From: Sphingobacteriales bacterium 50-39
Lineage (GTDB): Bacteria; Bacteroidota; Bacteroidia; Chitinophagales; Chitinophagaceae
Assembly (NCBI GenBank): GCA_001898505.1
Contig: MKTZ01000001.1
Span: 310,001 to 374,000 of the forward strand
DNA: 64,000 nucleotides
Direction of reading: 5' to 3'
Positions within the stretch are counted from its first letter, which is position 1; each line of letters opens with the position of its first letter. Positions 31,973 to 49,060 of this stretch are shown here, in pieces. A program made the translations under genes and the position numbers. The notes beneath the pieces are model-generated. The model searched no databases. It was given only the letters and a program-made list of their open reading frames with translations, and was not told where the DNA came from.

Positions 31973-32140
31973 ATGGTGCGGAAACGATTGCGTATTTTAT
32001 TCATGTAAATAGGGGTACATGGGCTATATTGTGTTAAAATAACTTAATAATCAGATAAAATATTTAGTTATTTCTCCGGGTGAATGCACTTTCTTTGAAC
32101 CTATTTTTATTATTAGCTAACGTTGCTTAATCGTCCGGAC

Positions 32141-33424
32141 ATGTCAAAAAACAAATTGCTGGTTCCATTTATCCTGGTGACTTCTTTGTTCTTCTTATGG
32201 GCCTTTCTCCACAACCTGAATCCCATCCTGATCCCTCACCTTAGGAAAGCGTGTCAACTGAATGATACTCAGTCTTCTCTGGTGGATTTTCCCATTTATC
32301 TCGCGTATTGCCTGGCCGCTATTCCGGCGGGGTTGTTTATGCATAAATATGGGTATAAAAAGGGGATCATTCTGGGGCTGATAATGTTTTCCTTTGGAGC
32401 GGTGCTTTTTACTTTCGCCGCCTCGGAGCGGAATTTCATCTATTTCCTGGTGGCGTTGTTCGTACAGGGTAGCGGGGCTGCCTTTCTGGAGACGGTGGCC
32501 AACCCTTATATGGCCAATCTGGGTGATCCGGCCCATTCGGAGCAACGGCTGAACTTTGCCCAGTCTTTTAACGGACTCGGAGCGATGGTGGCGCCCCTGG
32601 TAGGCGCCCAGTTCATTTTATCGGGTATCGAGCATACGCCGGCGGAACTGGATGCCATGAAGGCGAATGGAACGCTGAATGCTTATTTGCAGTCGGAGGC
32701 TGATCTGATCAAGATGCCTTATTATGTAATAGCTGCGGTAGTGCTATTGGTGGCGCTGCTGTTCGTATTCAACAAGATACCTGAGATAAAGGAGCCGGAT
32801 GCAGAATTGGATGCACCAGTGGGCGCACATGGGCATACGGTGGGTACGAAGTTCTCTTTTAACGTGTTCCGGTTCAGCCATCTGAGGTGGGCCATCCTGG
32901 GCATTTTCTTTTATGTGGGGTCTCAGGTGGCAGTAGGGAGCTTCTTTATCAGGTTCTCCCGATTTGTCGCGGATATTCCGGAGAAAGAGGCGGGAAGGAT
33001 GTTTACGGGTGCGATGGTGGGCTTTATGGCGGGAAGGTTCCTGGGGACCTTCTTTATGAAATATATCAAGCCGGCGAAGCTGCTGTCCCTGTATGCGGCG
33101 ATCAATATACTGCTGCTGACGGTGGCTATACTTACGAAAGGGCATATTGCCGTCTATTGCGTGATGGCGACACCTTTCTTTATGTCCATTCAATTCCCAA
33201 CCATATTTGCACTGGGTATCAAGGACCTGGGTGAAGAGACCAAGATGGCGTCCTCCTTCCTGGTGATGGCTATCATCGGGGGAGCCGTTGCGCCGCTGGC
33301 GATGGGCGCGATCTCGGATGCAACACATAGTATACAGATCGCCTATATTGTACCATTGATCTGCTTTGCCTACATATTATTCTATGGGCTGAGCGGGCAT
33401 AAAATAAAACCTGTCAAATCATGA
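32141..33424 (+). CDS. fucP: L-fucose:proton symporter of the FucP family
   Basis: This 427-residue transporter of the major facilitator superfamily has about 12 membrane helices and imports L-fucose, and often L-galactose and D-arabinose, with protons. It starts SKNKLLVPFILVTSLFFLWAF. GSGAAFLETVANPYMANLG holds the conserved acidic residue E117 in the LETxANPY motif of FucP/GluP, with FNGLGAMVAPLVGAQFIL after it. ATG 32141 is used; the TTG six codons earlier is less likely. It is the first gene of an eleven-gene cluster. The 168-base upstream gap should hold the promoter, but no clear TAnnTTTG element was identified. It overlaps the mutarotase gene by four bases. Confidence 0.9.
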   Translation: MSKNKLLVPFILVTSLFFLWAFLHNLNPILIPHLRKACQLNDTQSSLVDFPIYLAYCLAAIPAGLFMHKYGYKKGIILGLIMFSFGAVLFTFAASERNFIYFLVALFVQGSGAAFLETVANPYMANLGDPAHSEQRLNFAQSFNGLGAMVAPLVGAQFILSGIEHTPAELDAMKANGTLNAYLQSEADLIKMPYYVIAAVVLLVALLFVFNKIPEIKEPDAELDAPVGAHGHTVGTKFSFNVFRFSHLRWAILGIFFYVGSQVAVGSFFIRFSRFVADIPEKEAGRMFTGAMVGFMAGRFLGTFFMKYIKPAKLLSLYAAINILLLTVAILTKGHIAVYCVMATPFFMSIQFPTIFALGIKDLGEETKMASSFLVMAIIGGAVAPLAMGAISDATHSIQIAYIVPLICFAYILFYGLSGHKIKPVKS

Positions 33425-33759
33425 GATACTGTCTGGCATTGGACCTGAAAAAAGACGCGGCGCTGATCGCGGAATATGAGCAATGGCACCGGGATATATG
33501 GCCGGAGATCAAAAAGAGCATTTGGGATGGAGACGTTACGGATATGGAGATCTACCGGCTGGAAGACCGTCTGTTCATGATCATGGAGACGGGTGAAGGG
33601 TTTAGTTTTGAGAAGAAGGGAGCGATGGATGCGGCCAATCCCGTGGTGCAGAAATGGGAGGAGCTGATGTGGAAATATCAGTCTGCTGTACCGGGTGGCA
33701 AGGCGGGGGAGAAGTGGCGACTGATGACAAAGATATTTTCATTAAACGACTCAAAATAA
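33421..33759 (+). CDS. L-rhamnose/L-fucose mutarotase family protein
   Basis: This 112-residue ferredoxin-fold mutarotase (RhaM/DUF718 family) interconverts sugar anomers for the next enzyme. Typical features are the N-terminal RYCLALDLKKD, the catalytic-site HRDIWPEIKKSIWDGDVTDMEI and the C-terminal KWRLMTKIFSLND. In this setting the substrate is probably L-fucose or L-galactose. Its ATG overlaps the fucP stop (ATGA), so it is translationally coupled. Confidence 0.85.
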   Translation: MRYCLALDLKKDAALIAEYEQWHRDIWPEIKKSIWDGDVTDMEIYRLEDRLFMIMETGEGFSFEKKGAMDAANPVVQKWEELMWKYQSAVPGGKAGEKWRLMTKIFSLNDSK

Positions 33760-33764
33760 TCAGC

Positions 33765-34529
33765 ATGTTCAGCTTAAAAGAAAAGAATGCCGTCATCACC
33801 GGCGCGGGCAGCGGGATTGGCAAGGCGGTGGCCCTGCTCCTGGCGGGGCAGGGGGCGAGGGTATATGCAGTGGACCTTAACGAAGGACAGGCATTGGAAA
33901 CAGTAAAGGAGATCGAGGCGGTGGGCGGATCGGCTTCTGCGCATGCGGCGGACGTATCCAAACAGGAAGAGGTTGTGAGGGTTTTTGCGGCGGTGCCGAA
34001 GGTGGATATTGTCGTGAACAGTGCGGGCGTATCGCATGTGGGGACGGTGGAGACCACTTCGGAAGCAGACTTTGACCGACTGTACAACGTCAATGTAAAG
34101 GGTGTATACAATTCGCTGTATGCGGCGGTGCCTTTGATGAAGAAGAGCGGCGGCGGGGTCATTGTCAATATGTCGTCCATTGCCGCACTGGTAGGTATTC
34201 CGGACAGATTCGCCTACTCCATGACTAAGGGGGCGGTGACGGCCATGACCCTTTCGGTAGCGAAGGATTATATCAAAGACGGCATTCGCTGCAACTGTAT
34301 CTCTCCTGCGCGGGTCCATACACCTTTTGTGGATGGGTTTCTAAAGAAGAACTATCCGGGGAAGGAGCAAGAGATGTTCGAGAAACTGTCGAAGACGCAG
34401 CCTATAGGACGGATGGCAAAGCCGGAAGAGATTGCGGGGCTGATCCTTTACCTATGCAGTGACGAGGCGGCCTTTATTACGGGCTGTGATTATCCCATCG
34501 ACGGGGGATTTGTAAAATTGAATAATTAA
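33765..34529 (+). CDS. SDR oxidoreductase, probable 2-keto-3-deoxy-L-fuconate dehydrogenase
   Basis: This 254-residue classical short-chain dehydrogenase has the cofactor motif TGAGSGIG at 12-19 and NSAGVS in place of NNAG. The intact catalytic set is S137/S138, Y151 and K155 in FAYSMTKGAV. ISPARVHTPFVDGFL and DYPIDGGFV resemble the KDF dehydrogenases of the oxidative L-fucose route, which make 2,4-diketo-3-deoxy-L-fuconate. Position next to the FAH-family hydrolase, the following enzyme of that route, supports this. ATG 33765 lies five bases after the mutarotase stop. Exact substrate is inferred. Confidence 0.75.
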   Translation: MFSLKEKNAVITGAGSGIGKAVALLLAGQGARVYAVDLNEGQALETVKEIEAVGGSASAHAADVSKQEEVVRVFAAVPKVDIVVNSAGVSHVGTVETTSEADFDRLYNVNVKGVYNSLYAAVPLMKKSGGGVIVNMSSIAALVGIPDRFAYSMTKGAVTAMTLSVAKDYIKDGIRCNCISPARVHTPFVDGFLKKNYPGKEQEMFEKLSKTQPIGRMAKPEEIAGLILYLCSDEAAFITGCDYPIDGGFVKLNN

Positions 34530-34569
34530 AAACTGAAGGCCCGGGGTGGGCCGGTATAAACTCAACTAT

Positions 34570-35427
34570 ATGAAGCTGATACGACATGGCGTACTGAATA
34601 AGGAGAAAACGGGGGTGGTGATCGATGGCAAGCACTACGACACTTCTGCCTTTGGTGAAGATTATAATGAACAATTCTTCGAGTCGGGGGGACTGGAGAG
34701 GCTGAAGACATTTGTGGACAAGAACAAGGGTTCGTTGCCTGCCCTCGCTGAAGGAGTCCGGCTGGGGTCGCCGATAGCCCGTCCTTCGAAGATAGTTTGT
34801 ATCGGCCTTAATTACGCAGATCATGCAAGGGAGACGGGCGCTACGCCTCCTCCGGAACCGGTGATATTTTTGAAATCGACGACGGCGCTGGTCGGCCCTT
34901 ACGATGATATTATCATTCCTCGAGGCTCCAAAAAAACGGACTGGGAAGTAGAGCTGGCTGTAGTCATTGGCAAAAAGGCGAGCTATGTCACGGAGGCTGA
35001 GGCGCTGAACTATGTAGCGGGGTATTGTCTGCATAACGATGTATCGGAGCGGGAATTTCAGATCGAGCGCAGCGGGACCTGGGACAAGGGGAAGGGTTGT
35101 GATACGTTTGCGCCGCTGGGGCCTATGCTGGTGACGCCGGATGAAGCGGGGGATATCGACAAATTGCGGTTATGGCTTACCGTGAATGGAAGGAAGATGC
35201 AGGATGGAACCACTGCCAATTTTATATTCCGTGTGCCCTTTATCATTTCCTATGTGAGCCAGTTCATGACCCTGCTGCCCGGGGATGTTATTTCAACCGG
35301 TACGCCCGCAGGAGTTGGCATGGGACTGAACCCGCAAACTTATCTGAAGGCGGGAGATGTGGTTGAGCTGGGTATCGACGGACTTGGAGTATCAAGGCAA
35401 AATGTAAAAGCATATGCTGGATCGTAG
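34570..35427 (+). CDS. Fumarylacetoacetate hydrolase family protein, probable 2,4-diketo-3-deoxy-L-fuconate hydrolase
   Basis: This 285-residue FAH-family enzyme should cut a 2,4-diketo acid into pyruvate and a hydroxy acid. Visible motifs are KIVCIGLNYADHARETG, FLKSTTALVGP and the metal ligands in DWEVELAVVIG. GYCLHNDVSEREFQ and RSGTWDKGKGCDTFAPLGP are the pattern of the L-fuconate and L-rhamnonate pathway hydrolases, and the family's GDVISTGTPAGVGMG closes the domain. In this operon it would act after the SDR at 33765, giving pyruvate and L-lactate from fucose. It overlaps the next gene by 14 bases. The alternative is generic ureidoglycolate lyase-like annotation, which the context argues against. 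Confidence 0.82.
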   Translation: MKLIRHGVLNKEKTGVVIDGKHYDTSAFGEDYNEQFFESGGLERLKTFVDKNKGSLPALAEGVRLGSPIARPSKIVCIGLNYADHARETGATPPPEPVIFLKSTTALVGPYDDIIIPRGSKKTDWEVELAVVIGKKASYVTEAEALNYVAGYCLHNDVSEREFQIERSGTWDKGKGCDTFAPLGPMLVTPDEAGDIDKLRLWLTVNGRKMQDGTTANFIFRVPFIISYVSQFMTLLPGDVISTGTPAGVGMGLNPQTYLKAGDVVELGIDGLGVSRQNVKAYAGS

Positions 35428-36277
35428 CCCAACTATCGATGCGCACCCAACCATCGATGCGCATCAACATTTCTGGAAATATGACCCCTTCCAGCATGCG
35501 TGGATCAATAACGACATGCGGGTGATACAAAGGGATTTTTTGCCAGGGGATCTGCTGCCTGTGCTACGGGCGACCGGTGTAGATGGTTCTGTGCTGGTGC
35601 AGGTGGATCAGACGGATGAGGAGAATGAGCTCATGCTGGAACATGCGGGTAAGCATGATTTTATCAAGGGTGTCGTGGGCTGGGTGGACCTTCAAAACCC
35701 TGCTGTGGAGGAGCGATTGGCTTTTTACAAGAGGCATCCCATGATGAAAGGGTTCCGGCATATCCTGCAGGGCGAGAAGGACAGGGCGTTGATGTTGAAG
35801 CCGGCCTTTAAGAGGGGGATTGGATTGTTGCAGAAATTTGGCTATACGTACGACATACTTATTTTTCCCGATCAACTGGGTTATTCGCTGGACTTTACGG
35901 CGAGCTTTCCGGACCAGCCATTTGTGATCGACCATGTGGCGAAACCATACATTAAAGACAAGCGATTGACGAGCGAGTGGGAGGCGGCGATACGGGCGGT
36001 GGCGGCTAGGGAGAATGTCTATTGTAAGATCTCGGGTATGGTGACGGAGGCGGACTGGAAGAGCTGGAAGGCGGAAGAGCTGCATCCCTATATCGACACC
36101 GTGGTGGAGGCTTTTGGCATTCGGCGGGTTATGTATGGCTCCGACTGGCCGGTGTGTCTGGTGGCGGCAAGTTACGAGCAGTGGTATGGGTTGATGAAGG
36201 ATTATTTTTCCAAATTTTCGAAGGATGAGCAGGCGGCTGTTTTTGGTGGCAATGCCAGGAAATTCTACAACCTTTAA
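35414..36277 (+). CDS. Amidohydrolase-2 family lactonase, probable L-fucono/L-galactono-lactonase
   Basis: This 287-residue metal-dependent hydrolase of the amidohydrolase superfamily has metal ligands H17 and H19 in IDAHQHFWKYDP, VVGWVDLQNP, KGFRHILQGE, the PFVIDHVAKPYIK segment and the final RRVMYGSDWPVCLV with its catalytic Asp. L-fucono-1,5-lactonases and L-rhamnono-lactonases belong to this group, and the operon favours that role, opening the lactone made by the L-fucose dehydrogenase. The N-terminus carries a tandem duplication (PTIDAH twice, 35429-35464), so the HxH ligand pair is formed only from the second copy. It starts inside the FAH gene. Confidence 0.82.
   Translation: MLDRSPTIDAHPTIDAHQHFWKYDPFQHAWINNDMRVIQRDFLPGDLLPVLRATGVDGSVLVQVDQTDEENELMLEHAGKHDFIKGVVGWVDLQNPAVEERLAFYKRHPMMKGFRHILQGEKDRALMLKPAFKRGIGLLQKFGYTYDILIFPDQLGYSLDFTASFPDQPFVIDHVAKPYIKDKRLTSEWEAAIRAVAARENVYCKISGMVTEADWKSWKAEELHPYIDTVVEAFGIRRVMYGSDWPVCLVAASYEQWYGLMKDYFSKFSKDEQAAVFGGNARKFYNL
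35429..35464 (+). repeat. 18-bp tandem duplication at the lactonase 5' end
   Basis: CCAACTATCGATGCGCAC (35429-35446) is followed at once by CCAACCATCGATGCGCAT (35447-35464), differing at two third positions. It encodes PTIDAH twice. Confidence 0.9.
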
Positions 36278-36286
36278 AAATGTAAT

Positions 36287-37075
36287 ATGGATCTATTGTT
36301 AAAAGATAAAGTGATCATCGTATCCGGCGGCGCCAAGGGTATTGGAGAGGGGATCTCGAAGGTGCTGGCGGCGGAGGGGGCTATTCCCTTTATTATTGGG
36401 CGGAATGAGGAGGACAACAAGGCGACTGTGGCTGCCATCGAGGCGGCAGGCGGGCGGGCGTATCAATGCGTCGCGGAGTTGACGAAGCCGGAGGAATGCG
36501 AGAAGGCCGTGAAGGTCGTGCTGGAAAAGACGGGACGGATCGACGGGTTGGTGAACAATGCGGGGGTGAATGATGGGGTTGGCCTGGCGTCCGGGAACTA
36601 TAAAGCATTTTTGGAGTCCTTGCATAAGAATGTGGTACATTATTATTTGTTAGCGCACTATTCACTGCCGGCGCTGCGGAAATCAAAGGGGGCTATTGTG
36701 AACATCAGCTCGAAGACGGCCGAGACCGGTCAGGGAAATACTTCGGGCTATGCTGCTGCCAATGGCGGGCGTAATGCGTTGACGAGGGAGTGGGCGGTGG
36801 AGTTATTAAATGACGGGATACGCGTGAACGCGATCATCGTGGCGGAGTGCTGGACGCCGTTGTATGAGAGATGGATCAAGACACTGGACGATCCGGAAGA
36901 GAAATTGAAGTCCATCGTGGCGAAGATACCGCTGGAGAACAGGATGACGACGTCGGAGGAAATTGCGAATATGACGGCTTTTCTTTTGTCGTCGAGGTCG
37001 AGTCATACGACGGGACAGTTGATACATGTGGATGGGGGGTATGTGCATTTGGACCGGGCATTGTCGAAGACATAG
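36287..37075 (+). CDS. SDR oxidoreductase, probable L-fucose (L-galactose) dehydrogenase, with Asn at the catalytic Lys position
   Basis: This 262-residue short-chain dehydrogenase has the cofactor motif SGGAKGIG at 13-20, NNAG at 90-93 and S141/S142. TSGYAAANGGRNALTREWA follows; here Y155 is present but the position normally filled by Lys in YxxxK is N159. The late segment NAIIVAECWTPLYERWI resembles L-fucose dehydrogenases, whose versions read NAxxPAExxTPLYxxWI. It would oxidise L-fucose, and probably L-galactose, to the lactone used by the upstream lactonase. It starts nine bases after that gene. The missing lysine is clear in the DNA (AAT) and needs explaining; an annotation as inactive is possible. 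Confidence 0.72.
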   Translation: MDLLLKDKVIIVSGGAKGIGEGISKVLAAEGAIPFIIGRNEEDNKATVAAIEAAGGRAYQCVAELTKPEECEKAVKVVLEKTGRIDGLVNNAGVNDGVGLASGNYKAFLESLHKNVVHYYLLAHYSLPALRKSKGAIVNISSKTAETGQGNTSGYAAANGGRNALTREWAVELLNDGIRVNAIIVAECWTPLYERWIKTLDDPEEKLKSIVAKIPLENRMTTSEEIANMTAFLLSSRSSHTTGQLIHVDGGYVHLDRALSKT

Positions 37076-37099
37076 GATTTGGCGGGCAAAAAAGAAAAA

Positions 37100-38116
37100 A
37101 TGAGAACATTGGTTTGTATAAGACCGGGGGAGTTCGAGTACCGGGAGATGGATGCGCCTTTGGCAGGGCCGGGCTGTTCCATTATAAAAATACGGCGGAT
37201 AGGTATTTGTGGGACGGACCTTCATGCCTATGAGGGGACACAGCCATATTTTGAATATCCCCGCATACTGGGGCATGAGCTGGCGGGAGACCTGGTGGAT
37301 ATGGATCAGGCTCATGGATTCGCGATCGGGGATGCGGTGACGATAATACCCTATTTCAGTTGTGGTCATTGTATTGCATGTAGGAACGGAAAGCCGAACT
37401 GCTGTGTTTCTATTAAAGTTTGCGGGGTGCATATCGATGGGGGCATGGTGGAATATCTTTCTGTCCCTTCATCGTCGCTGGCGCCTGGCGAGGGGTTGAG
37501 CTATGATCAGCTGGCGTTGGTAGAGCCATTGGCGATAGGGGCGCATGCCGTTCGGCGGGCTGCGGTGCAGCCGGATGAATTTGTACTGGTGGTGGGAGCG
37601 GGGCCCATAGGGCTGGGAGTAATGGAGTCGGCGCGCATTGCCGGCGGGCAGGTGATCGCGATGGATATCAACGAGACGCGGCTGGGCTTCTGCCGGGACA
37701 GGCTGCATTTGCTGCATACGGTGAATGCGGCAGAAGGGGACGTTATGGAGAAGCTGCGTCATATTACCCGTGGAGATATGCCGACGGTGGTGATCGATGC
37801 CACGGGCAGCCGGAAGGCGATCCTCGATGCCTTTTTCTATATGGCGCATGGAGGGCGATATGTGCTGGTGGGATTGCAGAAGGGGACGATCGAATTCAGC
37901 CATCCGGAGTTCCATAAGCGGGAGGCAACGTTGATGAGCAGCCGAAATGCTACGCGCGAGGATTTTGTTTTTGTTATGGATTCCATGAAAAAAGGGTTGA
38001 TCGACCCTACGACCTATATTACGCATCGGGTGGGGTTTGATCGGGTGAAAGAGGAGTTTGCGGGATGGCTGGACCCGGCGAGGGGGGTGATCAAGGCGAT
38101 GGTGGAAATGAAATAA
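37100..38116 (+). CDS. Zinc-dependent dehydrogenase similar to L-galactonate 5-dehydrogenase (LgoD)
   Basis: This 338-residue medium-chain dehydrogenase has catalytic zinc ligands C37 (GICGTDLHAYEG) and H59/E60 (ILGHELAG). Its structural zinc cysteines are C88, C91, C94 and C102 (SCGHCIACRNGKPNCC), and its Rossmann motif is VVGAGPIGLG. From memory, E. coli LgoD (YjjN) shares much of this line, including IPY-AC--C-AC--G--NCC, GVH-DGG-EYLSVP, HAVRRAA and FS-PEFHK-E-T-M-SRNAT-EDF. LgoD oxidises L-galactonate to D-tagaturonate, the substrate of the tagaturonate reductase at 39836, so the neighbours fit. ATG 37100 is chosen over a TTG seven codons earlier. L-fuconate is another possible substrate. 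Confidence 0.75.
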   Translation: MRTLVCIRPGEFEYREMDAPLAGPGCSIIKIRRIGICGTDLHAYEGTQPYFEYPRILGHELAGDLVDMDQAHGFAIGDAVTIIPYFSCGHCIACRNGKPNCCVSIKVCGVHIDGGMVEYLSVPSSSLAPGEGLSYDQLALVEPLAIGAHAVRRAAVQPDEFVLVVGAGPIGLGVMESARIAGGQVIAMDINETRLGFCRDRLHLLHTVNAAEGDVMEKLRHITRGDMPTVVIDATGSRKAILDAFFYMAHGGRYVLVGLQKGTIEFSHPEFHKREATLMSSRNATREDFVFVMDSMKKGLIDPTTYITHRVGFDRVKEEFAGWLDPARGVIKAMVEMK

Positions 38117-38117
38117 A

Positions 38118-39173
38118 ATGAGCAAAAAAGTTTTATCATTTGGAGAGTTGTTATTGCGGATATGCCCGGATGGGGATGGCTTGTGGTTAAAAGAAAACAC
38201 GTTGTCCTGCTACGTGGGTGGGGCGGAGGCCAATGTGGCTACGGCCCTGGCTTTGTGGGGGATACCATCGGCCTACTTTACTGTGCTGCCGGAAAACCTT
38301 ATGGGGCGTCAGCTGGCGGACTATCTGGGAGAGCGGGGCATCGATACTTCACGAATTCTCTACCAGGGTGCGCGTCTGGGTCTTTATTTCCTTCCCAAGG
38401 GAAAGGACCTTAAGAATGCGGGGGTGATCTATGACAGGGGTCATTCGTCTTTTTCGGACCTGCAGCCGGGCAGCATCGACTGGGACAAGGTTTTTTACGA
38501 TGTGACATGGTTGCATTTCAGCGCCATATCCCCTGCCCTCAACAGCCGGGTGGCTCTTGTATGTGAGGAGGCGCTACGTGCGGCGTCCGATAAAAATATC
38601 ACCATCTCCGTTGACCTTAATTACCGGGCCAAGCTATGGCAGTATGGGTGTGAGCCTGCGGAGGTCATGCCGGGGCTGGTGGAATATTGCGACCTGGTGA
38701 TGGGGAACCTGTGGGCCGCGGAAAAAATGCTGGGCATACCGGTGAGCAGCTCCATTACGGAGAACAGTGGGAAAGAAGAATATCTGGCGCACGCGGAGAA
38801 GACGAGCAGGGAGATCATGCGTCGATGGTCAAAGACGAAGATGGTGGCCAACACATTCCGATTTGACAAGGTGGATGTGGGAGCGCGGCCGGATGGTGCG
38901 GGTGGTATGGGCATCCGGTATTATACGGCCCTTTATGCGGGTGGGAAGCTATATCAGTCGAAGGAATACCTGGCCGACAGGATCGTGGACAAGGTAGGCA
39001 GCGGGGATTGTTTTATGGCCGGCCTGATCTATGGTCAATATAGCGGCGCCGGTTACCAGGATACATTGGAATTTGCCACGGCTGCTGCCTATCAAAAGCT
39101 TTTTATCTCCAATGATGCCACGAACCAGCGTGTGGAGGAAATACAAAAATTTATGCAATCATATGAGCGATAA
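38118..39173 (+). CDS. kdgK: PfkB-family sugar kinase, probable 2-keto-3-deoxygluconate kinase
   Basis: This 351-residue ribokinase-family enzyme has VLSFGELLLRICPDGDG at the start, substrate-contact segment YVGGAEANVATALALWG, VDLNYRAKLW, and the catalytic DKVGSGDCFMAGLIYG with its general-base Asp. KDG kinases share the SFGE(L/I)LLR and GGAExNVA motifs. It would phosphorylate 2-keto-3-deoxy-D-gluconate made by the altronate dehydratase downstream, giving KDPG for the adjacent aldolase. It is next to kdpg aldolase (11-base overlap) and two bases after the dehydrogenase. Confidence 0.88.
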   Translation: MSKKVLSFGELLLRICPDGDGLWLKENTLSCYVGGAEANVATALALWGIPSAYFTVLPENLMGRQLADYLGERGIDTSRILYQGARLGLYFLPKGKDLKNAGVIYDRGHSSFSDLQPGSIDWDKVFYDVTWLHFSAISPALNSRVALVCEEALRAASDKNITISVDLNYRAKLWQYGCEPAEVMPGLVEYCDLVMGNLWAAEKMLGIPVSSSITENSGKEEYLAHAEKTSREIMRRWSKTKMVANTFRFDKVDVGARPDGAGGMGIRYYTALYAGGKLYQSKEYLADRIVDKVGSGDCFMAGLIYGQYSGAGYQDTLEFATAAAYQKLFISNDATNQRVEEIQKFMQSYER

Positions 39174-39831
39174 AAAAAATATTCTTCAGAGCATATTGGA
39201 TCAGGGGATGTTGCCTTTGTTCTACTGGGACAGTGCGGAGGTCAGCATAGAAGTGACGCGTGTGCTGTACAAGGCGGGTGTGCGTGCATTGGAGTATACC
39301 AACCGGGGCAAGGCTGCGCTGGAGAATTTCCGGGCCATGAAGAAGACATTTGCTGCGGAGGCGCCTGATCTTTATCTCGGTATCGGGACGATCAAGACGG
39401 CGGATGAGGCAAAGGCTTTTATCGAGGCGGGAGCGGATTTTATCGTGGCGCCTATCGTCAATCCAGAGGTGGCGGCGGTGGCTGCCAAGACGGATATGTT
39501 GTGGATACCGGGTTGTATGACGCCTACGGAGATACACCAGGCGCAGCAATTGCAGGCGGCGGTGATCAAGATATTCCCTGCCAATGTCCTTGGTCCGGAG
39601 TTTGTCGGCTCCATCCGGGAGCTGTTCCCGGGCCAGCTGTTTATTCCCACGGGTGGTGTGGAACTGAACAAGGCCAATATCGATGCCTGGTTCAAGGCGG
39701 GTGTCTGTGCGGTGGGTATGGGCAGCAAGCTGATCAGCAAGGACATCCTGAAGAACAAACAATACGATGTTTTATACAAGCATACGGTGACCGCCCTGGA
39801 GTTGGTCAGCGAAGTCGTCAATGAAAAGTAG
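39163..39831 (+). CDS. eda: KDPG/KHG aldolase
   Basis: This 222-residue class I aldolase cleaves 2-keto-3-deoxy-6-phosphogluconate into pyruvate and glyceraldehyde-3-phosphate. Motifs are RALEYTNRGKAAL (E44, R48), GIGTIKTADEAKAFIEAGA, WIPGCMTPTEI and the Schiff-base lysine K136 in VIKIFPANVLGPEF. The family phosphate-site segment IPTGGVELNKANIDAWFKAG follows. It begins inside the kdgK 3' end, indicating coupling. Length and motifs are normal. Confidence 0.92.
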   Translation: MSDKKNILQSILDQGMLPLFYWDSAEVSIEVTRVLYKAGVRALEYTNRGKAALENFRAMKKTFAAEAPDLYLGIGTIKTADEAKAFIEAGADFIVAPIVNPEVAAVAAKTDMLWIPGCMTPTEIHQAQQLQAAVIKIFPANVLGPEFVGSIRELFPGQLFIPTGGVELNKANIDAWFKAGVCAVGMGSKLISKDILKNKQYDVLYKHTVTALELVSEVVNEK

Positions 39832-39835
39832 TCAT

Positions 39836-41311
39836 ATGAATCTATCGAGAAAGAATTTAGCGGTGATCCCTTCCGGGGGTGTTGTAAAACCGGAGGAACG
39901 GATATTCGGGCTGCCGGAGAAGGTTTTGCAATTCGGGACGGGGGTACTGTTAAGAGGGCTGCCGGATTATTTTATCGACAAGGCCAATCGGCAGGGAGTA
40001 TTCAATGGCAGGGTGGTGGTGGTGAAATCCACGGATGCGGGTGATTCGTCCGCCTTTGACAGCCAGGATGGTTTGTATACATTGTGTGTGCGGGGGATCG
40101 AAGGGGGGAAGACAATAGCGGAGAATATCATCAACAGCTCCATCAGCCGGGTGTTGTCCGCGAAAAGCCAGTGGAAGGATATCCTGCAATGCGCTCATAA
40201 TCCCGTCCTGCAGGTGATCATATCCAATACGACGGAAGTGGGCATTCGGCTGGTGGAAGAAGATATCCGCCAGGAGCCGCCGGCCTCTTTTCCGGGGAAG
40301 CTGCTTGCCTTTTTGTACGAGCGCTATAAGTTCTGCGGCGGCAGTAAGGAGGGGGGAATGGTGATCGTGCCTACGGAACTGATCGTGGACAATGGGAAGA
40401 AGCTGGCTGCCATCGTGCGGGAACTGGCTGCATTTAACAAGTTGGAGGGTGCGTTTGTGGAATGGCTGACGGGGGCCTGCCGTTGGTGCAGCTCGCTGGT
40501 AGACAGGATCGTACCGGGCAAGCCGGGTGGGGCCAGCTTACAACAATTACAAGAGGAACTGGGTTATACTGATGAACTGCTGTCCATCTCGGAGGTGTAC
40601 CGGCTGTGGGCTATCGAAGGAGATGAGAAGGTGCAGTCGGTGTTGTCTTTCGCGGCGGCGGATGCGGGTGTGATCATCAAGCCGGATATAGAGATCTACC
40701 GGGAGCTGAAGCTGCGGATGCTGAACGGCACGCATACATTGAGCTGCGGACTGGCTTATCTGGCGGGCTTCGTCACGGTGAAGAATGCGATGGATGACGC
40801 CGGATTTGCGGCCTTTGTATCGGACCTGATGTTGAAGGAGATCGCGCCGGCTATACCTTATGCGATATCTGCCGAGCAATCCCGGGAGTTCGGTCTGCAG
40901 GTGCTGGACAGGTTCCGCAACCCGCACCTTCAGCATCAATGGATCAGCATCACGATGCAGTATTCTTCGAAGATGAAGATGCGTAATATACCGGTGCTTT
41001 TGCAGCATTATCGGCGGCATGATTCTCCGCCTGTGCTGTTTGCACTGGGCTTTGCGGCCTATCTGCTCTTTATGAAGGGCGGGGATTACAAGGTGAATGA
41101 CGACAAGGCGGAATATTTTGCCAGCCTGTGGAAGCAGTCCGGACCGGACGAGGTGGCAGATAGAGTCCTTTCTGATGCGTCGCTCTGGGATACCGATCTG
41201 TCGGTGTTGCCCGGATTTGCCGCGGCTGTCAAGGAAGACCTGCATGCATTGATCAATAAAGGGGCTTTGTCGAAACTGGCCCAATTTGGAAAAATAAAAA
41301 GCGTATTATGA
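39836..41311 (+). CDS. uxaB: Tagaturonate reductase (altronate oxidoreductase)
   Basis: This 491-residue NADH-dependent enzyme of the mannitol dehydrogenase superfamily reduces D-tagaturonate to D-altronate. Typical segments are EKVLQFGTGVLLRGLPDYF near the N-terminus, QVIISNTTEVGIRL, the IVPTELIVDNG segment and CSSLVDRIVPG. The long-chain dehydrogenase catalytic part KLRMLNGTHTLSCGLAYLAG has the essential Lys. ATG 39836 is preferred; ATG 39821 overlaps the eda stop. It shares an ATGA overlap with the altronate dehydratase. Fructuronate reductase is the nearest alternative, but the partner is altronate dehydratase, not mannonate dehydratase. Confidence 0.88.
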   Translation: MNLSRKNLAVIPSGGVVKPEERIFGLPEKVLQFGTGVLLRGLPDYFIDKANRQGVFNGRVVVVKSTDAGDSSAFDSQDGLYTLCVRGIEGGKTIAENIINSSISRVLSAKSQWKDILQCAHNPVLQVIISNTTEVGIRLVEEDIRQEPPASFPGKLLAFLYERYKFCGGSKEGGMVIVPTELIVDNGKKLAAIVRELAAFNKLEGAFVEWLTGACRWCSSLVDRIVPGKPGGASLQQLQEELGYTDELLSISEVYRLWAIEGDEKVQSVLSFAAADAGVIIKPDIEIYRELKLRMLNGTHTLSCGLAYLAGFVTVKNAMDDAGFAAFVSDLMLKEIAPAIPYAISAEQSREFGLQVLDRFRNPHLQHQWISITMQYSSKMKMRNIPVLLQHYRRHDSPPVLFALGFAAYLLFMKGGDYKVNDDKAEYFASLWKQSGPDEVADRVLSDASLWDTDLSVLPGFAAAVKEDLHALINKGALSKLAQFGKIKSVL

Positions 41312-42966
41312 ATACACAGCAAATTATCCTGAAAGTTCATCCGAACGACAACGTACTGGTGGCATTGGCCAATCTTTTAAAGGATGAGAAGGTAGTTTTT
41401 GAGGGGAAGGAGTATACAATGGAAGAAACAGTAAAAGCCAAACATAAGTTCGCCACGGTGGACCTGGCGCCGGGGGACAGCATCATCATGTATGGGGTGC
41501 TGGTGGGCAAGGCGCAGCAGCCTATCAAAAAAGGCGGGCTGATCAGCACAACCAATGTGAAGCATGCCGCCAACGATTTTAATGTCGGGGAGCGTCATAC
41601 GCAATGGGTGAAGCCGGACATATCGGCCTTTAAGGGCAAGACCTTTAATGGCTATCACCGGGCGGACGGCAGTGTGGGAACGGCCAACTATTGGGTGGTG
41701 ATCCCCATGGTATTTTGTGAGAACAGGAACCTGGATGTGCTGCAGCAGGCGTTGGTAACAGACCTGGGTTATGGCAGGAACAGGAGCTACCAGGTGCAGT
41801 CGCAGCAATTGATCGAATTGTATAAGACGGGGAAGAGCGTGGAAGAGATATTGCAAGCGGACCTGCAGGCTGATTATGGGAAGTATGCTTCGCAGCGTTT
41901 GTTTCCCAATGTAGATGGGATCAAGTTCCTTACACATGATGGCGGATGCGGCGGTACGCGGCAGGATGCGCAGGCATTGTGCGGATTGCTGGCGGGATAT
42001 GTTACCCATCCGAATGTGGCTGGCGCCACTGTGCTGAGCCTGGGGTGCCAGAATGCGCAGGTGAGCATGCTGGAGGAAGAGATAAAAAAGAGAAGCCCGC
42101 AGTTCTCCAAACCTCTTTATATATTGGAGCAGCAGAAAATTGGGAAGGAATCGGCGCTTTTATCGGAGGCGATCAAGCAAACTTTTGCGGGATTGATACT
42201 GGCCAACCAACAGGGGAGGCAGCCGGCTCCGCTGAGCAAGCTGTGTATCGGACTGGAATGTGGCGGCTCGGATGGCTTTTCGGGTATCTCTGCCAATCCG
42301 GCGATAGGCTATACCTCCGACCTGCTGGTAGCGATGGGGGGGAGTGTCATCCTTTCGGAGTTTCCCGAGCTATGCGGCGTGGAACAAAATTTAAGCGACC
42401 GGTGTGTAGACGTGGCTACGGCAGAACGATTCTCTCACCTTATGCGAACATATAATGACCGTGCCAAGGCGGTGGGTTCGGGTTTTGATATGAATCCTTC
42501 CCCGGGCAATATCCGGGATGGGCTTATCACGGATGCCATCAAGTCGGCGGGGGCTGCCAAGAAGGGTGGGACTTCGCCTGTGACGGCTGTGCTGGATTAT
42601 CCGGAAAAAGTGACGCAGCCCGGATTGAATTTGTTGTGTACGCCGGGTAATGATGTGGAATCGACTACGGCGGAGGTGGCTTCGGGGGCTACGGTTGTCC
42701 TGTTCACTACGGGGCTGGGGACGCCTACGGGGAATCCTATTGCGCCGGTGGTGAAGATCGCGACGAATACGCCACTATATGAAAGGATGCAGGATATCAT
42801 CGACATCAATACCGGAACGATCATCGAGGGTAAGGAGACGATAGAGCAGGCGGGTGGAAGGATATTGGATTATGTGATCGGGGTGGCGAGCGGTGAGATC
42901 GAGGTAGCGGCGGTGCGGCATGTACAAGACGATTTTATCCCGTGGAAGAGGGGAGTGAGCTTATAA
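41308..42966 (+). CDS. uxaA: Altronate dehydratase family protein (UxaA), possibly also L-fuconate dehydratase
   Basis: This 552-residue protein has an N-terminal SAF domain (about 10-90, KVHPNDNVLVALANLL ... PGDSIIMYGVLVGKA) joined to the UxaA catalytic domain. Motifs are FLTHDGGCGGTRQDAQALCG, LSLGCQNAQVSMLEEEI, GLECGGSDGFSGISANPAIG and LLCTPGNDVESTTAEVASGA. The conserved cysteines suggest an iron or Fe-S site. It removes water from D-altronate to give 2-keto-3-deoxy-D-gluconate. It is the only dehydratase in the cluster, and the L-fucose route also needs one, so a double role is plausible (see findings). It is the last gene of the operon. It is somewhat longer than E. coli UxaA. Confidence 0.88.
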   Translation: MNTQQIILKVHPNDNVLVALANLLKDEKVVFEGKEYTMEETVKAKHKFATVDLAPGDSIIMYGVLVGKAQQPIKKGGLISTTNVKHAANDFNVGERHTQWVKPDISAFKGKTFNGYHRADGSVGTANYWVVIPMVFCENRNLDVLQQALVTDLGYGRNRSYQVQSQQLIELYKTGKSVEEILQADLQADYGKYASQRLFPNVDGIKFLTHDGGCGGTRQDAQALCGLLAGYVTHPNVAGATVLSLGCQNAQVSMLEEEIKKRSPQFSKPLYILEQQKIGKESALLSEAIKQTFAGLILANQQGRQPAPLSKLCIGLECGGSDGFSGISANPAIGYTSDLLVAMGGSVILSEFPELCGVEQNLSDRCVDVATAERFSHLMRTYNDRAKAVGSGFDMNPSPGNIRDGLITDAIKSAGAAKKGGTSPVTAVLDYPEKVTQPGLNLLCTPGNDVESTTAEVASGATVVLFTTGLGTPTGNPIAPVVKIATNTPLYERMQDIIDINTGTIIEGKETIEQAGGRILDYVIGVASGEIEVAAVRHVQDDFIPWKRGVSL

Positions 42967-44273: not shown

Positions 44274-45656
44274 TCAGTAACCAGGATTTTGTATCAGATT
44301 AGGGTTACTTTCCAATTGGCTAAAGGGGATGGGGTATAATGCCTTGAATGGCTCCCATCTCACCTTTTCTTTGCCAAGTACGGTGTCGATGAGCCCCGTT
44401 CGTTTCAGGTCCAGCCATCGGTGTCCACATTCTGCGAAAAGTTCTACCTGGCGTTCGTGCCAGATGGCAGGTATGATATCTGCAGATGCATCGATCTTGT
44501 TAAGCCCTGCCCGTTGTCGAACGATATTCAGGTCAGCGGCGGCGCCGGTGGCGTTGTTCTGCATGATCCTTGCTTCTGCGCGGATCAGGTACTGTTCGGC
44601 GAGACGTAGGATGACGTCGCACTCCAATCCGGCAGGCTTGTTCGAAGCCTGCCGGTATTTAAATGGATAAAACAGCTGATGGTCATTAGTAGACAGCCAG
44701 TGTGTGAAGCGCTGGTCACCTGGTTCGAAACCGTTCAGCAGCCATTGCGTTAGACAATATACAGGTCGAGCTCCCGGTCGGGGGATGAAGAAGCTGCCTT
44801 CGGCTGAATTTGTATTCTCATGTACAGGCTGTAGTTGCCAGATGATCTCGGGGCTGGCTGTTGAAAAAGTCTTATCCAGATCAGTGGACAATGTATAGGA
44901 GGGGTCTTCGATCAGAGTGGTAGCTGCCTCTTCTGCCGAGGTCCAATCTTTCAAATAACAATATACTCTTGCCAACAGGGCTGTGGCTGTTGCCCGGTTG
45001 GGCCGTGTACGTGTCTGAATGCCTTCGGCGTCCCCGACATAATGGGGAGAGAGTAACTGTTGTGCATCGAGCAGGTCCATTTTTACTGAACTGTAAATGA
45101 TCTCTTTAGGAGTCTGAGCTTGTGTCGCGGTGACCTGAAAATCCGGACTAAGGATCAGGGGGATGTTCCCATAGAGATTTATGAGACAAAAGTAGGTGAG
45201 CGCACGTACGAATTTTGCTTCTCCTATCAGTTGTCTTTTGGTGCTGTCATCGATGCCCCTTGAAAGGGGAGCATTTTCGATGATCGCATTGGCCTGATAA
45301 ATCCAGTTAAAGGCGGAACCGTAGAAGCCGGAGACGACGTAGTTCTGGCTGTTAAGGGTATTATTGGTAAATGGGTCTTCGGCTGTCGACGGCTGTGTTC
45401 TGAGCAATTCATCTGCACTAAGCCCTTCAAACAAGCTCATGCCTCCGTTGAGCAGGCTCCATTTGGTGTCCATTATCGAAATATAGATGCCCTTTATGGT
45501 CTTTGTAGCATTGACAGAATTGGAGAATGCCTGCTGGGCCGTTATGTCATTTTGAGGCGGCGGGACTTCCGTGAACTTTTTGCAGCTGGTAGAGGTAATG
45601 GCACAGGCCGTTAGAACGATGAACCAAAAAAATGATAAAATATGTCTGATGAGCAT
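44274..45656 (-). CDS. SusD/RagB-type surface lipoprotein
   Basis: This 460-residue partner of the SusC-like transporter follows it by 9 bases. The signal peptide ends in a lipobox (ITSTSC, Cys25) and the mature start is CKKFTEVPPPQNDITAQQAF. SusD hallmarks are IGEAKFVRALTYFCLINLYG, LARVYCYLKDWTSAEEAATT, LRLAEQYLIRAEARI, and the C-terminal WHERQVELFAECGHRWLDLKR with YPIPFSQLESNPNLIQNPGY. It is shorter than the first SusD of the window. There are no enzyme genes next to it, so the ligand is unknown. Confidence 0.93.
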   Translation of the reverse strand: MLIRHILSFFWFIVLTACAITSTSCKKFTEVPPPQNDITAQQAFSNSVNATKTIKGIYISIMDTKWSLLNGGMSLFEGLSADELLRTQPSTAEDPFTNNTLNSQNYVVSGFYGSAFNWIYQANAIIENAPLSRGIDDSTKRQLIGEAKFVRALTYFCLINLYGNIPLILSPDFQVTATQAQTPKEIIYSSVKMDLLDAQQLLSPHYVGDAEGIQTRTRPNRATATALLARVYCYLKDWTSAEEAATTLIEDPSYTLSTDLDKTFSTASPEIIWQLQPVHENTNSAEGSFFIPRPGARPVYCLTQWLLNGFEPGDQRFTHWLSTNDHQLFYPFKYRQASNKPAGLECDVILRLAEQYLIRAEARIMQNNATGAAADLNIVRQRAGLNKIDASADIIPAIWHERQVELFAECGHRWLDLKRTGLIDTVLGKEKVRWEPFKALYPIPFSQLESNPNLIQNPGY

Positions 45657-45665
45657 AATAGTTTT

Positions 45666-48600
45666 TTAAACATTGATTTTAAATCCGATGACGAAAGTTC
45701 TTACAGGAGGTAGTATGCTAAAGCTTTGTGTTTCGGGGTCGGAGAAAGGGAAGCTGGTGATAGTCAGGATATTTTGACCCTGAAGAAAGGCGATGCCCTC
45801 TTTGAGGTGGCATTTTTTTATGAAGTGGCTGTCTAATTTGTAACCGATGGAGAGACTTTTCAGCCGGATGAAGGAAGCGTCTCTTATCCGGGCGTTGGAT
45901 ATGACGAGGTCGGCAGCGCGTTCGGCAGCTTCGGGATCGGGTATTGCCGTAACTTTCTGGAACAATGCTTTTTCACCCGGGTGACGCCAGTATTGAAGAA
46001 ATTGAACGGGGAAATTGCCCTGGCTATAATTCCCTGGCATGCCGGGTAAATTCTGGCGCAACATCTCTATCAAAGGGTTGATGCCATTCTGTTGTCTGAA
46101 CTCCCAGAAAAATGCGAGCTCCCATTTTTTATAAGAAAGGATGTTATCCAAACCACCATAGCAACGCATGTCGAGATTGCCTCCCGGAATAACATCATTT
46201 TTATCCAGTACAGCGTTGCTGTCTTTATGCAAAAAAGTGTAGAGGCCTGTCTGCGGATCTACTCCTTTATACCCATAAACGATCTGCTCGCTGAGGGACT
46301 TCCCCTCCCGATAGGTTTGGTCATAAGTGGAGTTCTTCAACCCCTGAAAGGAGAGGAGCTTATTCTCGGGTATGGTAAGCACCAGGGAGGAGCTCCAATG
46401 GAAATTGGGAGAAGAGACATTGATCGACCTTATGCTACATTCGAGCCCTTTATTCAGGATAACGACTCGCTGATTGGCGGGCTGGCCGGGGAGCCCTGCT
46501 TGTGATGCGAGTGATTCGGTAATAACTTCATTGTCTGTCCAGGCGCGGTATGCAGCAGCCGAGAGCGTAAATCTATTTTGCCATAATCCCAGATCGAAAC
46601 CCAACTCTGCCTTATGGTTGACTTCCCAGGATAGGTTGGGATTGTAAAAACTGGCAGGTACGAGACCCTGTGAACCCTGATAGCCCAGTGCTGCAGAAGT
46701 GGGTGTATACAGCGCCGCAAATCTATAATCGCCAATCTGGTCGTTGCCGGTGGTGCCATAGCTGATGCGCAATTTCCCGAAGCTAAGCCAATGGGGCCAT
46801 GTAACGAAGCTTTCGCCGATGAAGTTCCAGGCTGCGCCGATGGCTCCGAATGTCCCATGTTGTCTGCCCGGTCCAAACCGGCTGGAGGCATCCCTTCTTC
46901 CAGAGGCGGTAAGAATATAGCGATCGAGCAGGTTATATTCTATCCTTGCCAGGAGCGCCTCGTATCTATAGACGACCCTGTTGAACGCAGCCTGTGTTTG
47001 CCAGGGATCCCCCGAGGACGGAGGCTGCAGCTCGTCATAATTCCCGATGGTCAACGACATGGCGCTCTTTATTTCCTGCTGTCGCGTGGCGCCGACGAGC
47101 ATGTCTATTTTGCTTCTGCCAAAAAGTTTTGAGTAATTGGCCGTGATATCGACAATAGCGCTGGTGTATTTGTTTTTGACCCAGTAATAGGTGCCTGTGG
47201 GCATCAGCAAGGGGTCTTGTGCTGCTGCTGGCAGCCAGCTCTCTTCTTCCACAGCACCCCAGCTGCAGCCAATGATGCCATTGAGCTTAAGGCCTTTAAG
47301 AGGCTCGTATCCTGCCCCGGCATGTGCGAGCCAATTGCCGATGCCAGCTTTGTATTGGTTCAGCTGGACTGCTGTGAAATCTAAAAAAGGTGCATTATTG
47401 TCCCACCAGCTATATACTCCATCCTTAAAGGTGGAGGCTGGCGTATTGGGGGCCATCTGTATATAGGTGCTGAGATCGATGGCAGGGAGGCGGTTGTCTT
47501 CCCGGCTGTAATTGCCGGAGATTTGCAACCGGAGCTTTTTATTGGGTGATTCGTATGCGTATTTGCCATAGACTATGGCACGGCCGTCAAACTGGCGGCC
47601 CGGCACTACGGCGGACTCCCTGTGGTAGTTGCCGTCGACAAACCAGTTGTGGGTGGTATTTCCCCCGGAAAAATCGATGCTATGATCGTTGACAAAACCT
47701 GTGCCGCCCATGATCGTATTCCTATAGTTGTGGCTTACGGTAGTGTCCCATGCAGATTCAGGAATGGTATATTGGTTGGGGGTAAGACCGTCATTGAGGA
47801 TGGCGTCCCTGCGCATGGACAGATATTGTTCAGTATTCATGAGCTGGCCACGCCCGATGGACTTTGTTATGCCTGCATAGGTGTGGAAGGAGAGCTGAGG
47901 CTTGCCGGGCACCCCTTTTTTTAGTGTGATCAAAATTGCTCCGTTGGCGCCCCTGCTGCCATAGATGGCGGTGGCGGCCGCATCTTTGAGTATCTCGATA
48001 TTGGCAATATTGTCCGGGTTAATGCCGTTCAGTGTACCAGGACCGGAGGGGCCCAGTACAGCCCCTGAAGCTATAGGACTGAGAATGCCTCCTGATAAGA
48101 TGACGCCATCAACGATGATCAAAGGTTGTTTACCGTTGTCGATGGAGGATTGCCCCCGTAACAGGAAATTATAGCTGCTACCCGGATAGCCGCTGATCTG
48201 CTGTATTGTCAGACCCGGTACGCGGCCTTCCAGTGCCGCCAGCACATTACCTACAGGCTGCTGCTGAAAAACAGAGCCCTTCACTTCGAAGGACGAGCCG
48301 GTGTTCAATCGAGGGGTGGTGGTACCGTATGCTCTGACTATATGTTCGTCCATGGATATAGAGTACATCTGGAGCGTCGTCGTGCGTTTCTCCCTATTGT
48401 CCAATCTTTCAGTTATAGGCAAATAACCTGTACATGATACTACCACTTCAGATTTGTATGCGGTTACAAAAATGCAGAACCTTCCATTGATATCGGTGAT
48501 CGCTCCTTTGCCTGTAAGGGGGATAATCACGGAGACATTTGGGAGCGGAGCGCCTTCGGCGTTAATGACCGTGCCTTTTAAAGGACTGAATACGGATGTG

Positions 48601-48920
48601 CCATTTGACGCGGTACTAAAGACGGAAAAAGAGTTGTCACCTTTTTTATAGCTGAATTCAAGACCGCCGAGGCATGTGCTCAATGCCTTCTCTACAGAGA
48701 CATGTTTAAGGTCGAGGCTGATGTTCGGCGCATGTTCAAAAACTTCCGTCCGAAAGGCAATCGTAAAACCTCCCTGCCGTTCAATGTCCCGTAAAACCGT
48801 TGGAATAGGCGCATCCGCGAAGTGTAATGTAACGTTCTGGGCGAAGCTGGCGGTGCATGTGATCAGGAAAATAATAAGGTACGTAAGGCGAATGCACCTC
48901 ACTGATAAGAAGGATTTCAT
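45666..48920 (-). CDS. SusC-like TonB-dependent transporter with N-terminal STN domain
   Basis: This 1084-residue outer-membrane transporter has a signal peptide (LTYLIIFLITCTASFAQ), then an STN (secretin/TonB short N-terminal) domain NVTLHFADAPIPTVLRDIER to about residue 105. A carboxypeptidase-D-like domain (GTVINAEGAPLPNVSVIIP), the plug (ILKDAAATAIYGSRGANGAI) and the barrel follow. An STN domain in a TonB transporter contacts FecR and signals to an ECF sigma factor, and both genes lie just upstream. I chose ATG 48920 as it gives the signal peptide. The usual VVVGYG string is altered (HIVRAYGTTTPRLNTG). Confidence 0.95.
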   Translation of the reverse strand: MKSFLSVRCIRLTYLIIFLITCTASFAQNVTLHFADAPIPTVLRDIERQGGFTIAFRTEVFEHAPNISLDLKHVSVEKALSTCLGGLEFSYKKGDNSFSVFSTASNGTSVFSPLKGTVINAEGAPLPNVSVIIPLTGKGAITDINGRFCIFVTAYKSEVVVSCTGYLPITERLDNREKRTTTLQMYSISMDEHIVRAYGTTTPRLNTGSSFEVKGSVFQQQPVGNVLAALEGRVPGLTIQQISGYPGSSYNFLLRGQSSIDNGKQPLIIVDGVILSGGILSPIASGAVLGPSGPGTLNGINPDNIANIEILKDAAATAIYGSRGANGAILITLKKGVPGKPQLSFHTYAGITKSIGRGQLMNTEQYLSMRRDAILNDGLTPNQYTIPESAWDTTVSHNYRNTIMGGTGFVNDHSIDFSGGNTTHNWFVDGNYHRESAVVPGRQFDGRAIVYGKYAYESPNKKLRLQISGNYSREDNRLPAIDLSTYIQMAPNTPASTFKDGVYSWWDNNAPFLDFTAVQLNQYKAGIGNWLAHAGAGYEPLKGLKLNGIIGCSWGAVEEESWLPAAAQDPLLMPTGTYYWVKNKYTSAIVDITANYSKLFGRSKIDMLVGATRQQEIKSAMSLTIGNYDELQPPSSGDPWQTQAAFNRVVYRYEALLARIEYNLLDRYILTASGRRDASSRFGPGRQHGTFGAIGAAWNFIGESFVTWPHWLSFGKLRISYGTTGNDQIGDYRFAALYTPTSAALGYQGSQGLVPASFYNPNLSWEVNHKAELGFDLGLWQNRFTLSAAAYRAWTDNEVITESLASQAGLPGQPANQRVVILNKGLECSIRSINVSSPNFHWSSSLVLTIPENKLLSFQGLKNSTYDQTYREGKSLSEQIVYGYKGVDPQTGLYTFLHKDSNAVLDKNDVIPGGNLDMRCYGGLDNILSYKKWELAFFWEFRQQNGINPLIEMLRQNLPGMPGNYSQGNFPVQFLQYWRHPGEKALFQKVTAIPDPEAAERAADLVISNARIRDASFIRLKSLSIGYKLDSHFIKKCHLKEGIAFLQGQNILTITSFPFSDPETQSFSILPPVRTFVIGFKINV

Positions 48921-49060
48921 AATAGTTTGAAATTTGGGTTGAAAAATAGCAGGGAATTGGATCAAAACCTCTGATAGGATGGTTCGATATAAGGAAGAAA
49001 GGTTGGATGGGTTCTGAAACCCGCAATCTAATAGTTTGGTTTGATGGGAAGGGTATTTAG

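Follow-up and report, generated by a model that had tools for sequence, protein, structure and literature searches.

A UxaA-type dehydratase, most likely acting on D-altronate, in a composite L-fucose/L-galactose operon of a Chitinophagaceae bacterium, and candidates for the L-fuconate dehydratase step

The composite operon and its last gene

We analyzed a 64,000-nucleotide stretch of the genome of Sphingobacteriales bacterium 50-39 (contig MKTZ01000001.1, positions 310,001 to 374,000; hereafter the window), in which a gene for a UxaA-type dehydratase is the last gene of an operon. An earlier note, made from the sequence alone, had suggested that this enzyme could dehydrate both D-altronate and L-fuconate and so supply the missing L-fuconate dehydratase of the fucose branch. 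The operon consists of 11 genes on the plus strand (32123-42966, Table 1), with gaps of at most about 35 bases and ATGA overlaps at two junctions, fucP/mutarotase and UxaB/UxaA. The genes for UxaB, the aldolase and the kinase sit immediately upstream of UxaA; UxaC is encoded elsewhere on the same contig, and D-galacturonate may feed the window UxaA via this enzyme. From comparison with known routes, the operon is most likely an L-galactose route (galactonate, tagaturonate, altronate, 2-keto-3-deoxy-D-gluconate (KDG)) fused with a route-III L-fucose pathway, the first steps being common to both.

The open reading frame (ORF) that had been assigned to a UxaA-type dehydratase proved to be intact, and its product is a member of the UxaA/GarD superfamily with the SAF, GD_AH_second and GD_AH_C Pfam domains all above their cut-offs. 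It is the sole match to PF04295 in the source genome (7.9 Mb in 27 contigs, listed as 100% complete). The best solved relative was galactarate dehydratase (6u7l, E 3.7e-71), and the score against TIGR03248, the equivalog model of the GarD galactarate dehydratase, was 285.3 bits, which did not reach the cut-off of 730.85. Four cysteines (Cys137, 214, 247 and 318) do not vary among the 69 UxaA rows aligned, which were the 76 less the six outgroup rows and L046; Cys214 and Cys247 align with Cys182 and Cys218 of GarD, and the four probably correspond to the published conserved cysteines of the superfamily. In the predicted structure (mean predicted local distance difference test score 72, predicted template modelling score 0.74, weak around several loops), residues 247-249 would directly follow the strand 237-244. 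With UxaB and the kinase/aldolase pair in the same operon, the protein is, judging by its sequence, most likely the D-altronate dehydratase of the composite operon.

Table 1. Genes of the composite operon, in order of position in the window
Gene product	Position	Strand	Support and remarks
FucP-type L-fucose:H+ symporter	32123..33424	+	TIGR00885 359 bits, cut-off 280
rhaM-family sugar mutarotase, 112 aa	33421..33759	+	PF05336 107 bits
Short-chain dehydrogenase/reductase (SDR), probable 2-keto-3-deoxy-L-fuconate 4-dehydrogenase	33765..34529	+	PF13561; role inferred from pairing with FAH
FAH-family protein, probable 2,4-diketo-3-deoxy-L-fuconate hydrolase	34564..35427 (listed ORF opens 34546)	+	NF053535 (L-rhamnonate counterpart) E 2.7e-103, below cut-off; PF01557
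Amidohydrolase, probable L-fucono/L-galactono-lactonase	35414..36277	+	NF052480 E 4.2e-83, below cut-off; PF04909
L-fucose (perhaps also L-galactose) 1-dehydrogenase, FucDH	36287..37075	+	NF052481 416 bits, cut-off 300
Zn-dependent dehydrogenase, probable L-galactonate 5-dehydrogenase (LgoD/LguD-like)	37079..38116	+	Best NCBIfam NF007489/PRK10083 E 1.5e-57, below cut-off; role inferred from context
PfkB-family kinase, probable KDG kinase	38118..39173	+	PF00294 over cut-off; KDG/KDGal kinase models below cut-off
KDPG/KHG-family aldolase	39163..39831 (listed ORF opens 39031; later start chosen)	+	PF01081 over cut-off; TIGR01182 142.6 bits, below cut-off 156
UxaB, tagaturonate reductase	39821..41311	+	NF002969 559 bits, cut-off 359
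UxaA-type D-altronate dehydratase (most likely)	41308..42966	+	552 aa; ATG overlaps UxaB stop; Asn249

The PRK10083 model in the table is what we take to be the LgoD family. Just past the operon, on the minus strand (window 44274-48965), two large ORFs resemble by eye a SusD/SusC-type pair. A second gene for an FAH-family hydrolase, with 53% identity to that of the operon, lies at G000:C1:477385-478218 of the source genome (G000), with no other fucose-gene matches around it.

UxaA proteins in fucose loci of other Bacteroidota

To compare the window with related loci, we used a class-level sample of 227 genomes and a family sample of 194 genomes; UxaA and the enolase were counted as present in a genome at E 1e-60. 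At the class level, UxaA was found in 33 of 227 genomes (in six at only 38-41% identity over part of the length) and the enolase-type L-fuconate dehydratase in three. All 35 non-window class-level UxaA places were scored, together with 40 loci of the family sample, taken from among its higher-ranking matches (matches were listed in 127 of the 194 genomes), some of which were chosen as second copies or came from the same genus. The resulting 76 loci, the window included, comprised 11 pure fucose loci (SDR and FAH genes without UxaB), 7 composite, 3 L-galactose, 44 hexuronate-like ('U') and 11 other loci. The 'U' label follows from a rule and is no proof of hexuronate use: three loci (L060-L062) received it through their kinase and aldolase despite a lactonase, fucP and the lack of UxaB, and L042 carries it along with FucDH and fucP.

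Neither the enolase queries (the FucD-like enzyme and seven paralogues of the source genome) nor two IlvD/EDD queries had a match at E 1e-8 in any of the 11 pure fucose loci, ORFs unmatched in this search being outside the Pfam scan. UxaA was thus the only dehydratase matched there (ORF lists were inspected for 10 of the 11), and none of the 11 genomes, eight from the class-level and three from the family sample, had the enolase at E 1e-60; in a second set of loci, described below, one fucose-type genome (L183) had it as well. In a tree of the 76 UxaA proteins built by a quick method (rows L074 and L076 in forms with starts 60 residues short, owing to ATG-only start choice), the fucose label required six changes, at least four of them forced by well-supported branches, which argues for a role in fucose use that recurs in more than one clade. 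These results support the view that UxaA-type proteins occupy the L-fuconate dehydratase slot in fucose operons of other Bacteroidota. At L029:749-2512, an ORF of 587 aa resembles L-fucose isomerase by eye; its neighbour is an oxidative fucose operon of the UxaA type, so that this locus may encode two routes for fucose.

The same tree grouped the window UxaA with a composite locus of the same genus (L059, support 98) and then, less firmly, with the three L-galactose loci (91). We also noticed that residue 249, two positions after the invariant Cys247 and Asn in the window UxaA, varied with gene context. The discovery set, which includes five added loci (two with provisional labels) and leaves out the six outgroup rows, had 9 His and 4 Asn in fucose loci, 3 His and 7 Asn in composite loci, 3 Asn in L-galactose loci, 4 His and 37 Asn in hexuronate-like loci (three of these four His rows being L060-L062), and 2 His, 5 Asn and 1 Lys in the others. 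A second set consisted of 80 loci from named genomes, the best 80 of 588, and gave 15 His and 2 Asn for fucose, Asn in all 47 hexuronate-like, 3 composite and 1 L-galactose loci, and 9 His and 3 Asn for the others; the two sets overlap in part, as some genomes seem to recur (L070/L145, L078/L160), though no compared strings were identical. Where two copies from one genome were compared, one had His and the other Asn in eight of nine genomes (the exception was G213); at least 34 family genomes have more than one UxaA copy, most of them represented by one or no sequence.

This marker is a lead only, because after correction for the tree just four independent contrasts were left; they pointed in the same direction in 3.2 of 4 cases on average and never in the opposite one (p 0.125-1), and the uncorrected Fisher p values (6.8e-5 and 8.5e-13) overstate the association. 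His249 was also absent from 6 of the 30 fucose-context copies of both sets. Residues 394, 486 and 502 lean by context too, less cleanly, and the window protein has the fucose-like Thr486 and the hexuronate-like Asp394. When a fucose-operon class of UxaA is defined, as in this analysis, by adjoining SDR and FAH genes without UxaB, by His249 and by an enolase-free genome, the window protein differs on each count: SDR and FAH are in its operon but so is UxaB, residue 249 is Asn, and the genome encodes the enolase.

Candidates for the L-fuconate dehydratase step

The absence of an enolase-type L-fuconate dehydratase, on which the earlier proposal was built, was borne out for the window but not for the genome: a PF13378 search of the genome gave nine places, none of them in the window. 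One of these, at G000:C25:459613-460839, matches human ENOSF1 (4a35, E 1.8e-108) and the L-fuconate dehydratase of X. campestris (2hne, E 8.8e-101); it has 42.7% identity to X. campestris FucD and keeps all nine catalytic positions checked (Lys-x-Lys, Asp, Asn, Glu, Glu, Asp, His, Glu), the position numbers being those we assume for the X. campestris enzyme. Once this gene had been found, we gave up the idea that the genome lacks any candidate for the fuconate step. A fucose-induced enolase gene elsewhere in the genome had been named in advance as evidence against the UxaA proposal, and the C25 gene supplies the presence part of that evidence only.

In the gene row on C25, an alpha-L-fucosidase (PF01120, 281 bits) comes first, then the enolase, a fusion of a sodium symporter with a mutarotase domain, and finally an SDR; among solved structures, human HSD17B14 is the best relative of this SDR. 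PMC13406643 and PMC11293516 name HSD17B14 and ENOSF1 as the two identified enzymes of mammalian L-fucose breakdown. Relatives of both are thus found in one and the same bacterial locus (G000:C25:458339-463690, L016:8340-13691), together with the fucosidase and the symporter-rhaM mutarotase fusion. Among the loci of the nearer relatives of the C25 enolase (63-79% identity; L109, L111-L117, n=8), an SDR2 match lay near the enolase in all eight and GH29 in six. By its sequence, the C25 enolase belongs to a distinct subgroup, with L-fuconate as its probable substrate; we say only probable because two other enolases (L110 and L118) are closer to X. campestris FucD.

Taken together, we favour, with confidence that is about even, a reading in which the window UxaA is an altronate dehydratase first and possibly a fuconate dehydratase second, while L-fuconate is dehydrated mainly by the C25 enolase. 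Starting from the observed gene order, families, gene presence and residues, we infer the following substrates and fluxes. Through FucP, the mutarotase, FucDH and the lactonase, L-fucose would give L-fuconate and L-galactose would give L-galactonate. The latter would then be converted to D-tagaturonate by the Zn-dependent dehydrogenase, to D-altronate by UxaB and to KDG by UxaA, followed by phosphorylation and cleavage by the kinase and the aldolase, and D-galacturonate would join via UxaC. L-fuconate would be dehydrated mainly by the ENOSF1/FucD-like enolase from the fucosidase locus on another contig, the product would return to the SDR and FAH enzymes of the operon, and UxaA may contribute some L-fuconate activity. 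We place altronate first because the UxaB, aldolase and kinase genes adjoin, the tree places the window with composite and L-galactose loci, residue 249 is Asn, and the C25 enolase exists. The ten-gene order of the window was also found in Flavitalea sp. BT771, a Chitinophagaceae metagenome-assembled genome (MAG) and MAG SZAS-43 (UxaA identity 93, 93 and 89%), all of which encode the enolase (87, 88 and 76% identity; 7 of 10 genomes queried had a match); with the window's own genome, the enolase is present in four of five genomes with this gene order. The UxaA frame of MAG SZAS-43 (L139:10001-11647) is interrupted at codon 28 of the stretch by an in-frame stop, which reflects either an assembly error or a broken gene.

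Several observations weigh against this reading. The fifth genome with the window's order, G256 of the same genus, has the ten large genes in that order and a single UxaA of 86% identity, and no enolase at E 1e-60. Of eight family genomes whose composite loci follow other orders, only G271 has the enolase, a count that raised the dual-enzyme reading and lowered the one that we prefer. In tree path, the rows nearest to the window after L059 are L061, L060 and L062, with His249, a lactonase and fucP and without UxaB. Enolase-positive genomes did not avoid placing FAH beside UxaA (6 of 23, versus 26 of 87 enolase-negative genomes, p 0.80). FucDH, lactonase, FAH and the 2-keto-3-deoxy-L-fuconate SDR had no match in the 18-kb C25 locus (L016) or in the eight fetched loci of nearer enolase relatives. 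The enolases that do have SDR, FAH and lactonase genes as neighbours (L110, L118) show 56-57% identity to the X. campestris enzyme and 40-41% to the C25 enolase, and the subgroup status of the latter counts on the same side. Finally, 60 family genomes combine FAH and a single UxaA with the lack of the enolase, and 17 of the 19 UxaA sequences examined from them had Asn249; for that reason Asn249 is compatible with a fuconate role. No dehydratase gene was found in the fucose modules of several enolase-less single-UxaA genomes, e.g. L128 (G287) and L130 (G244), and if those modules work, then L-fuconate is a substrate of an Asn249 UxaA or of some unknown enzyme.

A serious alternative, to which we give somewhat less than an even chance, is a genuine dual function of the single UxaA, which would form KDG from D-altronate and 2-keto-3-deoxy-L-fuconate from L-fuconate, with the distant enolase being a spare or serving another acid. 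UxaA closes the same tight operon as the SDR and FAH genes, its start overlapping the UxaB stop, and G256, the seven enolase-less composite-order genomes and the 11 pure fucose loci all fit such an enzyme. FAH-positive family genomes had UxaA in 110 of 115 cases, in 87 of them without the enolase, and neither in five. A D-arabinonate dehydratase of the UxaA family, moreover, acts on D-altronate, L-fuconate and L-galactonate (PMC6336799). However, the enolase occurs in the source genome and in all three further genomes of the same order from the second set, that is, in three of the four other genomes with this order; the window protein does not have the His249 seen in most UxaA copies of fucose operons; the D-arabinonate dehydratase has a kcat/Km for D-altronate about 6,700-fold below that for D-arabinonate, so that a side activity need not be physiological (same source); and G256 also has a second IlvD/EDD protein. 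Also on the side of the enolase, FAH was present in 23 of 23 enolase-positive family genomes versus 92 of 171 enolase-negative ones (p 3.9e-6, kinship ignored). Of the original proposal, a UxaA in the fuconate slot holds for other Bacteroidota and fits G256, but in the window's genome the step is not clearly missing.

More tentatively, and with clear doubt, the Bacteroidota altronate dehydratase could be an ancestral altronate/L-fuconate generalist. A single copy would keep Asn249 and serve both acids, a duplicated fucose-operon copy would repeatedly specialise through an Asn-to-His change, and the window operon would be the generalist state fused with the L-galactose route. In L060-L062, where a His249 UxaA stands with a kinase, an aldolase, a lactonase and fucP and without UxaB, L-galactonate or L-fuconate is perhaps dehydrated directly to feed the kinase and aldolase.

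It is quite improbable that another dehydratase, e.g. a second IlvD/EDD protein, performs the fuconate step, or that the L-fucose branch is non-functional and the operon serves L-galactose only: such a protein is encoded in the source genome and G256, and five FAH-positive family genomes with neither UxaA nor the enolase suggest that another solution may exist (SDR/FAH modules L122 in G313, where the contig ends directly upstream of the SDR, L123 in G336, L124 in G352, L125 in G399 and L119 in G341), but the second IlvD/EDD gene of the source genome has no fucose-gene match within about 7 kb on each side, 9 of 12 pure-fucose-locus genomes checked had a single IlvD/EDD match (more in G106, G381 and G337), IlvD/EDD enzymes generally prefer the opposite C2 configuration, and the operon's SDR and FAH show 72-92% identity to their counterparts in the four genomes that share the window order. 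An IlvD/EDD fuconate dehydratase was therefore held unlikely. The second IlvD/EDD gene in L022:7902-10941 is followed by a membrane protein resembling, by eye, a gluconate-type permease.

The analysis corrects the call of a missing enzyme and offers, within one genome, a second specific gene as candidate for this step, as well as a one-residue prediction (Asn or His at 249) for separating altronate from fuconate dehydratases within one family. If the generalist reading is true, many Bacteroidota seemingly without L-fuconate dehydratase have one that is named altronate dehydratase.

Comparison with known systems

D-altronate, L-galactonate and L-fuconate share the same configuration at C2-C4; this textbook part of the earlier argument holds. 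A like argument was applied to D-arabinonate, D-altronate and L-galactonate in PMC6336799, which also reports side activities of the UxaA-family D-arabinonate dehydratase (D-altronate 12%, L-fuconate 5.6%, L-galactonate 2.4%) and deduces from gene context that P. mimosarum has a UxaA-type L-fuconate dehydratase. In C. jejuni, Cj0482/Cj0483 were proposed for the fuconate step, with a Cj0483 knockout that was not essential for L-fucose use (PMC9100392). UxaA-type action on L-fuconate is therefore already in print for other phyla. Our literature search, by titles and abstract starts and with subscription papers mostly outside its coverage, found no description of a UxaA in the fuconate slot of Bacteroidota or of the 249 marker.

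The window UxaA resembles E. coli UxaA and Luteolibacter LguB (COG2721) in its domain set, the four cysteines, the UxaB partner and its place after tagaturonate reductase. LguB acts in an L-glucose/L-galactose route, and L-galactose routes are described for Luteolibacter and, by citation there, for Phocaeicola vulgatus (PMC12632266). Unlike these enzymes, the window UxaA shares its operon with the SDR and FAH genes of the L-fucose route. It shares its family with the D-arabinonate/L-fuconate dehydratases (H. huttiense C785_RS13685 by assay; P. mimosarum and C. jejuni by context), whose SDR and FAH context is found among its relatives, but differs from them in the UxaB partner and Asn249; the P. 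mimosarum (heteromeric) and C. jejuni enzymes are split genes and the H. huttiense enzyme prefers D-arabinonate. The enolase-type L-fuconate dehydratases (X. campestris FucD XCC4069; human ENOSF1) have the same proposed reaction in another family, with a relative at C25, outside the window. Composite L-fucose/L-galactonate loci are also known from Halomonas, in which lgoD, uxaA and uxaB (or uxaF) lie beside fucose/fuconate genes and, in strain HL-93, the complete fucose pathway is said to be in the composite locus (PMC5507952); these loci differ from the window operon in their TRAP transporter and belong to another phylum.

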